Assembly (NCBI RefSeq): GCF_014873535.1
Contig: NZ_JADBEF010000001.1
Span: 3,720,001-3,784,000, forward strand
DNA from: Nonomuraea africana
Lineage (GTDB): Bacteria > Actinomycetota > Actinomycetes > Streptosporangiales > Streptosporangiaceae
Length of the DNA: 64,000 nt
Direction: 5' to 3'
In this document: positions 44,157-48,820 of the stretch, piece by piece
How positions within the stretch are numbered: position 1 is the first letter of the stretch
Layout of the letters: each line of letters begins with the position of its first letter
The notes under the pieces: generated by a model
The model's input: the letters and a program-made list of their open reading frames with translations, nothing else
What the model was told of the DNA's origin: nothing
Database searches by the model: none
Program-made: the position numbers and the translations under genes

Positions 44157-44186
44157 CGCCCGCCGTACGGGAAGGTACGGCGGGCG
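44157..44186 (-). terminator. Terminator after the Rieske lipoprotein genes
   Basis: A perfect 12-bp inverted repeat, CGCCCGCCGTAC / GTACGGCGGGCG, with a 6-base loop, 7 bases beyond the stop of the first Rieske gene. It is followed on the minus strand by a short T-containing stretch. Confidence 0.65.
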
Positions 44187-44192
44187 GCGCGC

Positions 44193-44660
44193 TCACGCCA
44201 GCGTGATCGAGTCCCCTTCGACCTTGATGGCCACCTCGGGCAGCGGCTTGGTCGCCGGCCCGTCCTTGACCGACCCGTCCGCGATGCTGAACTTGCTTCC
44301 GTGGCAGGGGCAGTCGATCGTCCCCTCCGCGACCGACGCCACTGGACACCCCTGGTGGGTGCAGATGGCGCTGAAACACTTGAACTGGCCTGCCGTCGGC
44401 TGGGTCACGACGACCTTCTGCTCCTTGAAGATCGTCCCGCCTCCGACCGGCACGTCGGCCGTCGTGGTGAGTCCTGCCGTACTCGCTTCGCCGCCGGTGG
44501 CGGAGGTGGAGGCGGAGGGCGCCGCTGAGCCGGCCTGTGCCTGTGGGGCCGCGCTGGTCGTCGCCTCGCCGTCACCGCCACACGCCGCCAGCACCACGGC
44601 CAGGCCGCCCGCTCCCACACCCGCGATAACCGTCCTGCGGTTCTTAAGATCGTCTCGCAT
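44193..44660 (-). CDS. Tat-exported Rieske [2Fe-2S] lipoprotein (copy A)
   Basis: A 155-residue protein. A twin-arginine signal with lipobox ([10 protein letters not shown]..., LAAC, Cys27) is followed by a Ser/Ala-rich linker and a Rieske domain. The cluster ligands are in CTHQGC and CPCHGS. It is closest to copy B in the domain ([23 protein letters not shown]). Without a membrane helix beyond the lipid anchor, it looks like an extracytoplasmic electron carrier rather than a bc1 subunit. It is third in transcription order of a tandem triplet; the partner oxidoreductase is unknown. Confidence 0.9.
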
Positions 44661-44709
44661 GCGAACCAACCAACCGCAGACAACTGAGAAATTTGTGAAA
44701 GAACGCGGC

Positions 44710-45171
44710 CTACGCCAGCGAAATCTTCTCGCCGTCAATCGTGATCTTCTTCTCCGCCAGCCCCTTGGTCGCCGGCCCGTTGGCCACGGAGCCGTCGGCG
44801 ATGTTGTACTTGCTGCCGTGGCAGGGACAGTTGATGGTCCCGCCCTCGACGCTGTCCACCGGGCAGCCCTGGTGGGTGCAGATGGCCGTGAAGCACTTGA
44901 ACTCGCCCGCTGACGGCTGCGTCACCACGACCTTCTGCTCGGCGAAGACCTTGCCGCCGCCCTCGGGGATCTCGGCCGTGCTGGCCAGTTCCTCCCCCGC
45001 GGGCTTCTCGTCCTGCTTCGACTGCGCGGATTCCGGAGCCGAGGAAGCGGGGGCCGCGGGCTCGGCCACGGTGTCGGCCGGCTGTCCGTATCCGGCGCAG
45101 GCGGTGAGCAGCGCGCCCAGGCTCACACCCCCGGCTCCCAGCACCACCGCGCGACGTGTCGCCTCTGCCAT
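44710..45171 (-). CDS. Tat-exported Rieske [2Fe-2S] lipoprotein (copy B)
   Basis: A 153-residue paralogue of copy A. The signal TRRAVVLGAGG leads to lipobox LLTAC, then an Ala/Pro/Glu linker, then Rieske motifs CTHQGC and CPCHGS. I use the ATG at 45171, nine bases after GGAGG, rather than the GTG at 45180. The 49-base spacing to copy A suggests one transcript. Confidence 0.9.
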   Translation of the reverse strand: MAEATRRAVVLGAGGVSLGALLTACAGYGQPADTVAEPAAPASSAPESAQSKQDEKPAGEELASTAEIPEGGGKVFAEQKVVVTQPSAGEFKCFTAICTHQGCPVDSVEGGTINCPCHGSKYNIADGSVANGPATKGLAEKKITIDGEKISLA

Positions 45172-45276
45172 GATGATCACCCTCCAGGATCGCTGTCTCT
45201 TCTCAGGTACGGCCGCGCGTGCGCGCCGGTTCAGCCTTCCCCGAGCCGATCCTCGAAACCAGGTAGTTTTACCCGT

Positions 45277-45714
45277 TCACAGGATGACGATTCCGTCGCC
45301 CTCGACCTTGAGCGGGAACTCCGCCAGCGGCGCCTGGGCGGGGCCCTTGAGGCACTTGCCGCTGTCGAGGGCGAACTCGCTGCCGTGGCACGGGCAGGTC
45401 AGCACGCCGTCCTCGGGACGCGACACCGAGCAGCCCTTGTGCGGGCACCTGGCGGTGAACGCCTTGAAGACGCCCGAGGTGGGCTGGGTGACCACGATCT
45501 TCCACTCGTTGATCACCTTGCCGCCGCCCACGGGGACGTCGGCCTTCTTGGCGATGACCTTGCCCTTGATGCCGGGTGGCACGACCGCCGCGGCGGTGCC
45601 GTCCCCGCCTGCGCACCCGGCCAGCGCCACCCCGCACACGGCCACGCCCGCCGCTCCGAGCACCTCGCGCCGGCCCGGTGTGGGCATGCCACTACCCCGC
45701 TCCTCGCCTGCCAT
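45277..45714 (-). CDS. Tat-exported Rieske [2Fe-2S] lipoprotein (copy C)
   Basis: A 145-residue third member of the tandem set and the most diverged: ligands lie in CPHKGC and CPCHGS. The Tat signal is GRREVLGAAG with lipobox ALAGC. The ATG at 45714 has GGAGGGG upstream; the ATG at 45687 is an alternative. It lies 115 bases downstream of the end of uvrA on the same strand. Confidence 0.88.
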   Translation of the reverse strand: MAGEERGSGMPTPGRREVLGAAGVAVCGVALAGCAGGDGTAAAVVPPGIKGKVIAKKADVPVGGGKVINEWKIVVTQPTSGVFKAFTARCPHKGCSVSRPEDGVLTCPCHGSEFALDSGKCLKGPAQAPLAEFPLKVEGDGIVIL

Positions 45715-45828
45715 GTCGCCCCTCCGCGATCCCCCGACGCCCATGTCAGGCCGGGCCTTTACCTGCTATTCAGCATATTGAGGGCCCCCCGTGGTCCCGA
45801 ATCCGGCCCCCGGGGGGTGGGCGGGGCG

Positions 45829-48669
45829 TCAGACAGAGAGGATCTTCCGCAGGAACCGGCCGGTGTGGCTCTCGTCCACGAGCGCCACCTCTTCGGGCGT
45901 GCCGGACGCCACCAGGGTGCCGCCGCGGGAACCGCCCTCGGGACCCATGTCGATGACCCAGTCGGCGGTCTTGATCACGTCGAGGTTGTGCTCGATCACG
46001 ATCACCGTGTTGCCGCCGTCGACCAGTCGTCCGAGGACGCCGAGCAGCCGCCGGATGTCCTCGAAGTGCAGGCCGGTGGTCGGCTCGTCGAGCACGTAGA
46101 TCGTCCGGCCCGTCTGGCGGCGCTGCAGCTCGGAGGCGAGCTTCACGCGCTGCGCCTCACCACCGGACAGCGTGGTCGCCGGCTGGCCGAGGCGCACGTA
46201 GCCCAGGCCGACGTCGTTGAGGGTCTGCAGGTGCCGCTTGATCGCCGGGATGGCGTCGAAGAACGACAGCGCCTCCTCGATCGGCATGTCGAGGACCTCG
46301 GAGATGGTCTTGCCCTTGTAGTGGACCTCGAGCGTCTCCCTGTTGTAGCGGGCGCCGTGGCAGACCTCGCAGGGGACGTAGACGTCGGGCAGGAAGTTCA
46401 TCTCGATCTTGATGGTGCCGTCGCCGGCGCACGCCTCGCAGCGCCCGCCCTTGACGTTGAAGCTGAAGCGCCCCGGCTGGTAGCCGCGCACCTTCGCCTC
46501 GGTGGTCGCCGCAAACAGCTTGCGCACGTGGTCGAAGACCCCGGTGTAGGTCGCCGGGTTGGAGCGGGGGGTGCGGCCGATCGGCGACTGGTCGACGTGG
46601 ACGACCTTGTCGACCTGGTCCATGCCGTTCACCCGCGAATGGCGGCCCGGCACCGTGCGGGCGCCGTTGAGCTCCTTGGCCAGCGCGTTGTAGAGGATGT
46701 CATTGACCAGCGTCGACTTGCCCGACCCTGACACTCCGGTGACCGCGGTGAACACGCCGAGGGGGAAGTCGATGTCGACGCCCTTCAGGTTGTGCTCGCG
46801 CGCGCCCTTCACCGTGATCTGCCGCTTCTTGTCGCGCTTGCGGCGCTTGGCGGGGATCGCGATGGACCTGCGGCCCGACAGGTAGGCGCCGGTCAGCGAC
46901 TCCTCACTGGCGAGCAGGTCCTGGACGGTGCCCGAGACGACGACCTGGCCGCCGTGCTCGCCCGCGCCGGGGCCGATGTCGACCACCCAGTCGGCTGCGG
47001 CGATGGTGTCCTCGTCGTGCTCGACGACGATCAGCGTGTTACCCATGTCACGCAACCTGATCAGGGTGTCGAGCAGGCGCATGTTGTCGCGCTGGTGCAG
47101 GCCGATGGACGGCTCGTCGAGGACGTAGAGCACGCCGACGAGGCCCGAGCCGATCTGCGTGGCCAGGCGGATGCGCTGCGCCTCGCCACCGGCCAGGGTG
47201 CCCGCCGCGCGGTCCATCGTGAGGTAGTCGAGGCCGACGTCGAGCAGGAAGCCCATACGGGCGTTGATCTCCTTGACCACTCGCTCGGCGATGTGCATGT
47301 CGCGGTCGGACAGCTTCAGCGCGGCGAGGAACTTGGCGCACTCGCCGATCGACATGCCCGAGACGTCGGCGATCGACTTGTCGGCGACGGTCACGGCCAG
47401 CGAGACCGGCTTGAGCCGCTTGCCCTCGCAGGTCGGGCACGGGATCTCGCGCATGTAGCCCTCGAAGCGCTCACGCGTGGAGTCGCTCTCGGCCTCGGCG
47501 TGCCTGCGCTGCACCCACGGGATCACGCCCTCGTAGGTCGTGTAGTAGGAGCGCTGCCTGCCGTAGCGGTTGCTGTAGCGGACGTGGACCTGCTCGTCGT
47601 GCCCGTAGAGCAGGGACTTCTGCGCCTTCTTCGACAGCTTCTCCCACGGGGTGTCGAGGTTGAAGCCCATGGTCAGGCCGAGCGCCTCGACCAGGCGGAC
47701 GAAGTACTCGCTGGTGTGGCCGCCGGCCCACGGGTTGAGCGCGCCGTCGCCGAGCGTCTTCTCCGGATCGGGCACGACGAGGTCGGGGTCGACCTCCATC
47801 TTCGTGCCGAGGCCGGTGCACTCGGGGCAGGCGCCGAAGGGCGAGTTGAAGGAGAACGAGCGCGGCTCGAGCTCCTCGAACGACAGGTCGTCGTACGGGC
47901 AGTAGAGATGCTCGGAGTAGAAGCGCTCACGGCCGGGGTCGTCGTCGGGCAGGTCGACGAATTCGAGCGTGATCGTGCCGCCGGACAGCGTCAGCGCGGT
48001 CTCGACCGAGTCGGTGAGCCGCCTGCGCGACGACTCCTTCACCGACAGCCGGTCGACGATGACCTCGATGTCGTGCTTCTCGTACTTCTTCAGCGTCGGC
48101 GGCTCCTCGAGGCGGATCACCGTGCCGTCGACCCTCGCCCTGGCGAAGCCCTTGGTCTGCAGCTCGCGGAACAGCTCGGCGTACTCGCCCTTGCGGCCCC
48201 TGACGACGGGGGCGAGCACCTGGAAGCGGGTGCCCTCGTCGAGCTCCATCACCCTGTCGACGATCTGCTGCGGGGTCTGCCTGGCGATCGGGCGCCCGCA
48301 GGCGGGACAGTGCGGCTTGCCGATGCGCGCCCACAGCAGCCGCAGGTAGTCGTAGACCTCGGTGATGGTGCCGACCGTGGAGCGGGGGTTGCGGCTGGTC
48401 GACTTCTGGTCGATGGAGACCGCGGGAGACAGCCCCTCGATGAAGTCGACGTCGGGCTTGTCCATCTGGCCCAGGAACTGCCGGGCGTAGGACGACAGGG
48501 ACTCGACGTAGCGACGCTGGCCCTCGGCGAAGATCGTGTCGAAAGCCAGACTCGACTTGCCCGAGCCCGATAGCCCGGTGAAGACGATCAGGGAGTCTCG
48601 CGGAAGGTCGAGCGAGACGTCCTTGAGGTTGTGTTCACGTGCGCCACGCACGATCAAACGGTCTGCCAC
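45829..48669 (-). CDS. uvrA: Excinuclease ABC subunit A
   Basis: A 946-residue UvrA, the DNA-damage-recognition ATPase of nucleotide excision repair. It has two ABC modules: Walker [16 protein letters not shown] and [15 protein letters not shown], two LxGGEAQR signatures ([24 protein letters not shown]), zinc-finger cysteine pairs (CPAC; CPYC/CPEC; CEAC/CEVC), and [12 protein letters not shown] / [12 protein letters not shown]. The GTG at 48669 gives the family N-terminus; the frame opens further to 48732. I see no complete actinobacterial SOS box upstream. Confidence 0.96.
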
Positions 48670-48820
48670 GGTGATCCCGACGTCGAAGGTGTTGATAGGT
48701 CCACGGGGGATGGTAGAGGGAGGCTCCGACAATTTCGGGGGTCCGCTGGCGCCCCGTCGAAAACTTCCCTCACCAGAGTACGGCTTTCTCCCGAGCCGGT
48801 ACCGGTCCTTGCAGGTTCAA

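Follow-up and report, generated by a model that had tools for sequence, protein, structure and literature searches.

A conserved tandem triplet of Rieske lipoprotein genes between uvrA and uvrC, with DUF6529 as a candidate partner

Why are three genes for small Rieske proteins lined up between uvrA and uvrC, and with which partner could their products exchange electrons? This question arises from a window of 64,000 nucleotides, the whole stretch of Nonomuraea africana DNA that was analysed (C1:3720001-3784000 of a 9.69-Mb genome; GC 70.8%). All genes concerned are encoded on the minus strand. The three Rieske genes follow each other in the order C-B-A, namely C (45277..45714, 145 aa), B (44710..45171, 153 aa) and A (44193..44660, 155 aa), with uvrA as the conserved upstream neighbour (45829..48732) and uvrC as the conserved downstream neighbour (42190 to ~44091, as the start codon is not fixed). 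The original prediction, made from the sequence of the region, had described three tandem Rieske lipoproteins at 44193-45714, each with its own twin-arginine lipobox signal and both ligand motifs. These boundaries are exact, as the A stop codon ends at base 44193 and the best start of C begins at 45714, and the description holds for all three genes, with export judged by pattern. For C, a GGAGG is located six bases 5' of the best start, and in-frame ATGs at 45744 and 45687 are alternatives; GGAGG also precedes the ATG of B, and a clear Shine-Dalgarno sequence is absent 5' of the ATG of A. Just 3' of the A stop codon we found a GC-rich hairpin (44158..44185, minus strand; 11-pair stem, loop of 6, no T run), which could possibly mark the end of the C-B-A transcript. 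The 101-nt stretch with this hairpin has a z-score of -2.6 against shuffles, with 4 of 200 shuffles folding equally well. Scans of the triplet for a consensus terminator with T run and for sigma-70 promoters found none.

All three proteins match the Pfam Rieske domain PF00355 (A, E 3e-15; B, 1e-15; C, 2e-15) with 56-58 bits compared to a cut-off of 20.3, and each contains the CxHxxC and CPCHGS ligand motifs. In A, the domain spans residues ~78-142 (CTHQGC / CPCHGSKF), in B ~63-139 (CTHQGC / CPCHGSKY) and in C ~54-134 (CPHKGC / CPCHGSEF). The N-terminal signals read NRRTVIAG...LAAC in A (lipobox C27), TRRAVVLG...LTAC in B (lipobox C25) and GRREVLG...LAGC in C. Judged by pattern and inspection, the RR motif together with the lipobox is present in 88 of 90 proteins of the genus, and the two misses are genes truncated at a locus end. 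By eye, the lipobox is followed by a low-complexity tether of ~35 residues in A and B and a shorter one in C, and a membrane helix beyond the signal is seen in none of the three. The AlphaFold2 model of B, with block-mean pLDDT values of 95-99 from residue 61 onward, matches solved Rieske soluble domains, with 8hn2 as the best hit (E 7e-7) besides 9rk4 and 5cxm. In an NCBIfam search of 56 relatives, every match of B stays below its cut-off. A and B had been called close and C diverged. Aligned with MAFFT, A and B have 53% of residues in common and A and C 45%, so that the closeness of A and B is only relative. The CPHKGC motif does not qualify as a mark of C, since it is found in just 5 of 30 C copies of the genus, next to CTHKGC (17), CPHRGC (6), CTHMGC (1) and CTHAGC (1).

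Rieske genes are also present elsewhere in this genome. A fourth relative near C1:7.558 Mb (L190:6124-6495, minus strand) has an RR signal ending in ...AEAAAG; because the lipobox cysteine is absent, it looks secreted rather than lipid-anchored. In addition, a small Rieske-domain ORF (C1:3712533-3712784; L002, L221; open frame of 117 aa) is situated ~7 kb before the window among genes that, by eye, appear to be suf iron-sulfur assembly genes.

Within the genus the triplet is nearly universal: three tandem Rieske genes are located on the uvrC contig in 38 of 39 genomes, and all 30 loci examined by script contain precisely three copies in which the ligand motifs are complete. We rejected a true loss in the 39th genome (G036), where uvrC lies 81 bases from the contig end and the site is unassembled. 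Nei-Gojobori dN/dS values over 10 genomes are 0.37 for A, 0.37 for B and 0.49 for C, in comparison to 0.15 (0.145) for uvrC, 0.11 (0.107) for uvrA and 0.07 (0.065) for rapZ in the same genomes. Hence, A, B and C are under purifying selection, yet evolve faster than their neighbour genes. Both the presence in 38 of 39 genomes and these dN/dS values argue that the triplet is not a product of chance. The distance between A and uvrC stays within ~460 bases in 35 of 38 genomes; in the remaining three, gaps of 1.8 (G003), 2.4 (G038) and 4.3 kb (G031) are filled by other genes. The triplet is therefore able to stand apart from uvrC, but usually does not. In G031, the nearest relative sampled, the intervening genes encode a sigma-70-type factor with DUF6596 and a YCII protein (L216:7704-9274).

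Beyond the genus, the site is widely shared and the triplication is rare. Counting hits at E 1e-20, 79 of 118 class genomes have a Rieske relative, and 113 have uvrC; weaker hits (than 1e-20 in the class, than 1e-24 in the family) are uncounted, so that genomes scored as having no copy or no adjacent copy may hide diverged genes. One to three relatives precede uvrC on the same strand, at a distance of up to 5 kb, in 49 of the 118 genomes, which belong to 19 families, and in 31 of these 49 a relative lies within 243 bases of uvrC. We read this as a Rieske lineage that is old within the class at the uvrA-uvrC site. A single copy is the rule there (41 genomes), and two or three copies occur in four genomes each. 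A triplet in 38 of 39 genomes of the genus compared to 4 of 118 in the class supports the proposal that Rieske lipoproteins, predicted to be extracytoplasmic, have expanded in tandem in this lineage; most of the class genomes do not share the triplet in this place, and no characterised unit of this kind is evident in our literature search. Likewise, no paper there evidently describes Rieske lipoproteins encoded at the uvrA-uvrC site, although a mention in the gene tables of surveys of Tat proteins and lipoproteins in Streptomyces (Widdick 2006; Thompson 2010) is possible; the accessible portions of PMC10924467 and PMC5449189 concern other Tat proteins and QcrA.

Closer to the genus, a relative is present in 85 of 100 family genomes, and the family loci read include B+C pairs, A+B pairs and triplets in two further genera (G182, G215). 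The phylogeny of the three copies, which the original prediction had suggested as a check, gives a clear picture for C and a blurred one for A and B. C forms one order-wide orthologue group, with support of 100/92 together with Actinoallomurus and of 100/88 in a second tree. Because this group takes in Thermomonosporaceae, the split of C probably predates the diversification of the order. Two clean groups are not recovered for A and B, and the A-like genes of G163, G166, G215 and G182 cluster together (98/85). The tree comprises 98 columns and most of its deep forks are weak; the trees were built from chosen loci, leaving out low-scoring, duplicate and motif-lacking hits (three duplicates in one tree). 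Three of the four class triplets at uvrC come from one other family, f13 (G050, G073, G091; loci L192, L193, L194). The copies of G050 and G091 do not join the C group and occupy various positions in the tree, on long branches of weak placement, and G073 is in no tree shown. It is likely, but not proven, that the f13 triplet represents a separate expansion at the same address.

Three diverged copies could be tuned to different potentials, as had been supposed. We looked at the classical tuning positions in 30 genus loci per copy, and they give no separation of A, B and C. The disulphide cysteines are kept in 90 of 90 proteins, the hydrogen-bonding serine in 89, and the position of the bc1 tyrosine is a phenylalanine in 86. 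B of the window has a tyrosine here, which is shared by only 3 of 30 B copies. According to the accessible part of PMC3758308, the Phe-to-Tyr change shifts the potential of NT-26 AioB by 0 mV compared to 45-70 mV expected from bc1, and in the part of PMC12954380 available to us, the potential is higher for Kustd1480, which has Phe (+335 versus +303 mV). Going by these portions, the Tyr/Phe change alone is not predictive of the potential. Since the classical residues are common to the three proteins, we expect their potentials to be moderately high and alike, and the idea of differential tuning finds no support at these residues.

Among known proteins, the closest in kind is the cyanobacterial PetC3, an orphan Rieske lipoprotein that is not known to belong to a b6f complex and for which the reported potential is low. 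The likeness is one of kind, set by features rather than by shown descent: PetC3 (5cxm) has a Rieske domain with CTHxGC and CPCHG, is a lipoprotein without a linked cytochrome b, as are A, B and C, and is the second-best PDB sequence match of A. In the portion of PMC12341915 available, it is a Rieske lipoprotein located at the plasma membrane, on the periplasmic side. In contrast to the triplet, PetC3 is a single gene from another phylum, and in the alignment with A it has an alanine at the position of the hydrogen-bonding serine, which A, B and C possess. AioB, the Rieske subunit of arsenite oxidase, is comparable as part of an exported enzyme, and the P/K pair around the first ligand histidine of C in the window also occurs in NT-26 AioB (PMC3758308, in the part accessible). 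However, the triplet has no adjoining gene for a molybdenum subunit, and the AioB model TIGR02694 is not reached (38.3, 31.6 and 27.4 bits versus 95.65).

With respect to a partner, the original prediction stated that no oxidoreductase is encoded nearby. This is true of the neighbourhood: among the 30 largest clusters of neighbouring ORFs from 120 loci, none is by name a redox enzyme that accompanies the uvr site constantly. The recurring clusters at this site are uvrA, uvrC, rapZ, yvcK, whiA and two genes beyond uvrA; a further cluster occurs in 6 loci, with a mechanosensitive-channel protein as one member. The statement falls short for the relatives elsewhere. In the same comparison of 120 loci, Rieske relatives outside the uvr site repeatedly come after a gene for DUF6529 (PF20139), which itself is often preceded by the gene for an exported protein that we call p1. 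DUF6529 was detected in 22 of 118 class genomes. In 16 of the 21 genomes with a hit over the cut-off (the sub-cut-off hit of G101 is left out), a Rieske relative lies directly downstream on the same strand with a gap of 9-365 bases; one of these 16 (G095) has only a DUF6529 fragment. The five without an adjacent Rieske gene are the window's genome, G093, G089, G044 and G112.

Two of the loci read show unusual arrangements. In G095, of the Streptomyces family, the fragment is an open piece of 50 aa upstream of the Rieske gene (L204; C1:7455895-7456020), which is either the remnant of a decayed gene or due to a frame error. In G149, two near-identical Rieske domains are joined in one chain right after DUF6529 (L195:4390-5199, plus strand).

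The window's own genome encodes the putative partner, but unlinked. DUF6529 (C1:6329609-6330145) immediately follows the p1 orthologue at a distance of 2.6 Mb from the triplet. This p1 (L242:6912-7610, plus strand) is an exported protein of ~230 aa without a Pfam family, which stands upstream of DUF6529 both in Streptomyces and in the genus, and has 41% identity to Streptomyces p1 (E 2e-33). Outside the order, the Rieske proteins of the Streptomyces group of p1, DUF6529 and Rieske are among those most closely related to A and B. In Streptomyces the Rieske gene is part of this group, whereas in the window's genome it is found 2.6 Mb away and triplicated. DUF6529 is present in 34 of 36 genus genomes, and a Rieske signature is lacking in the 12.5-16 kb around it in all six genus loci read (16 kb in the window's genome). 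Sequence similarity points in the same direction for two of the copies: the median identity of A and B is 60.6 and 59.7% to 22 DUF6529-linked relatives, versus 56.6 and 51.8% to 40 uvr-linked relatives outside the genus. C shows no preference (45.4% versus 46.4%). Furthermore, at least two Rieske copies are found in 30 of 33 family genomes with DUF6529 compared to 17 of 67 without it (Fisher, 3e-10), and in 28 of 30 compared to 6 of 21 among genomes of at least 7 Mb (2e-6), an association whose statistics ignore kinship and for which genome size is a confounder. Direct linkage is rare in the family, where a Rieske hit lies no more than 1.3 kb from DUF6529 in only 2 of 33 genomes (G223, G163). 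DUF6529 cannot be the sole partner, because most Rieske-bearing genomes are without it, including 52 of 67 DUF6529-free family genomes that retain a Rieske copy and G008 of the genus, which has the triplet and no DUF6529. It is therefore likely that a partnership with DUF6529 holds for some Rieske copies only. That A and B serve the DUF6529 module at least partly in trans is a tentative assignment, to which we give somewhat less than an even chance.

DUF6529 has five predicted membrane helices in a model of middling confidence (pLDDT 74), and four histidines are invariant in 25 of 25 sequences. Read from the predicted helices, His 34, 104 and 121 are oriented towards one side and His 87 towards the other. 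A Foldseek search with the fold gave no significant match (best E 0.16), with cytochrome b561 (4o7g) appearing only at E 2.1; VIA-align reached Z 11.4 at best, with helical bundles that are unrelated and at a level stated to be noise for models of this type, and a profile search against PDB sequences retrieved nothing (best E 0.13). Our literature search found no paper on DUF6529. Because the model is middling and no fold match is significant, haem binding by DUF6529 is a guess from the conserved histidines.

The triplet is thus a real, conserved array of a known protein kind. Of the original ideas, that of an expansion is upheld and that of tuning is not; as to the partner, a concrete candidate is now at hand. 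The explanation we propose, and for which we see even chances, is that A, B and C are lipid-anchored extracytoplasmic one-electron carriers that arose by tandem duplication, with A and B as relatives of the Rieske subunit of the DUF6529 module that serve DUF6529 in trans. Each of these small proteins would carry a [2Fe-2S] cluster of the Rieske type. After synthesis and cluster loading in the cytoplasm, the folded proteins would be exported via Tat by means of their RR signals, anchored to lipid through the lipobox cysteine, and then transfer single electrons at the membrane surface. A first tandem duplication may have split C from the ancestor of A and B, and a later one A from B. The relatives of A and B would supply the Rieske subunit in a module of three genes, p1, DUF6529 and Rieske, in which DUF6529, as predicted five-helix membrane protein, could hold b-type haem with its four invariant histidines. 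In the genus, where p1 and DUF6529 have no linked Rieske gene, the copies at the uvr site may serve this pair in trans, and possibly other partners too.

A different reading does without any dedicated complex: A, B and C would be three interchangeable shuttles for general purposes, the triplet an increase in dosage, and the DUF6529 link one recruitment among several. The shared tuning residues of the three copies fit this, as does the majority of family members that occur without DUF6529, the lack of a shared redox neighbour at the uvr site (among the 30 largest clusters and in 15 gene maps read) and the presence of tandem arrays at the same site in f13. However, pure dosage does not predict that C remains a separate orthologue group across an order, and the copy number in the family tracks DUF6529. 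We regard general-purpose carriers as possible, though rather doubtful. The three proteins could also assist the cytochrome bcc complex as additional Rieske subunits, i.e. alternatives to QcrA that obtain electrons from QcrB. They share bc-type ligand motifs, the disulphide cysteines and a GPA-like Pro-loop with QcrA/PetC, the best structural match of the B model (8hn2) is PetC of C. tepidum, similarity to the QcrA and PetC models is detectable below the cut-offs, and QcrA-QcrB is encoded in the genome at ~C1:4.60 Mb. Yet these cut-offs are far away (A, 51 versus 275 bits for NF050121 and 46 versus 154 for NF010001), and QcrA/PetC have transmembrane helices where A, B and C have a lipid anchor and, by eye, no helix besides the signal. 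Moreover, the genome's own QcrA, with its PF19297 N-terminal region, adjoins QcrB, and there is no cytochrome b gene beside the triplet, whose neighbours are uvrA and uvrC. In our view, a role in the bcc complex is improbable.

The address itself could suggest sensors of oxidative damage or redox state that are functionally tied to nucleotide excision repair. It is kept in 49 class genomes from 19 families, and the short distance between A and uvrC in most of the genus would allow co-transcription. The proteins, however, are predicted to be extracytoplasmic, rapZ and yvcK are also constant neighbours and not repair genes, 1.8-4.3 kb with other genes separate A from uvrC in three genomes of the genus, and in the window the hairpin follows A. 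A link to repair is accordingly very improbable, the least favoured of all explanations considered here, and we likewise regard membership in a uvrC operon as unlikely on the basis of these separations (3 of 38 genus genomes) and the hairpin, despite the close spacing of at most ~460 bases in 35 of 38.

Returning to lipid-anchored carriers with DUF6529 as partner, a further-reaching version is conceivable. In a speculative scenario that we hold possible and no more than that, DUF6529 would be a small b-type cytochrome oxidising menaquinol (or reducing an outside acceptor), the Rieske protein its electron head and p1 an exported accessory, together forming an undescribed actinobacterial membrane redox module. 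In the genus this module would be split, and three diverged heads would compete for, or diversify, one cytochrome. If true, this would be a pared-down Rieske/cytochrome b system that differs from both bc1 and b6f.

Rieske lipoprotein relatives are common in Actinobacteria, with 79 of the 118 class genomes, yet none is evident in our literature search. The DUF6529 linkage provides the first concrete candidate partner for them, and DUF6529, a family of unknown function, can now be tested for a part in electron transfer. Should the pairing prove real, the two would constitute a small Rieske/cytochrome module, and the genus would be an example of a redox head duplicated far from its partner.
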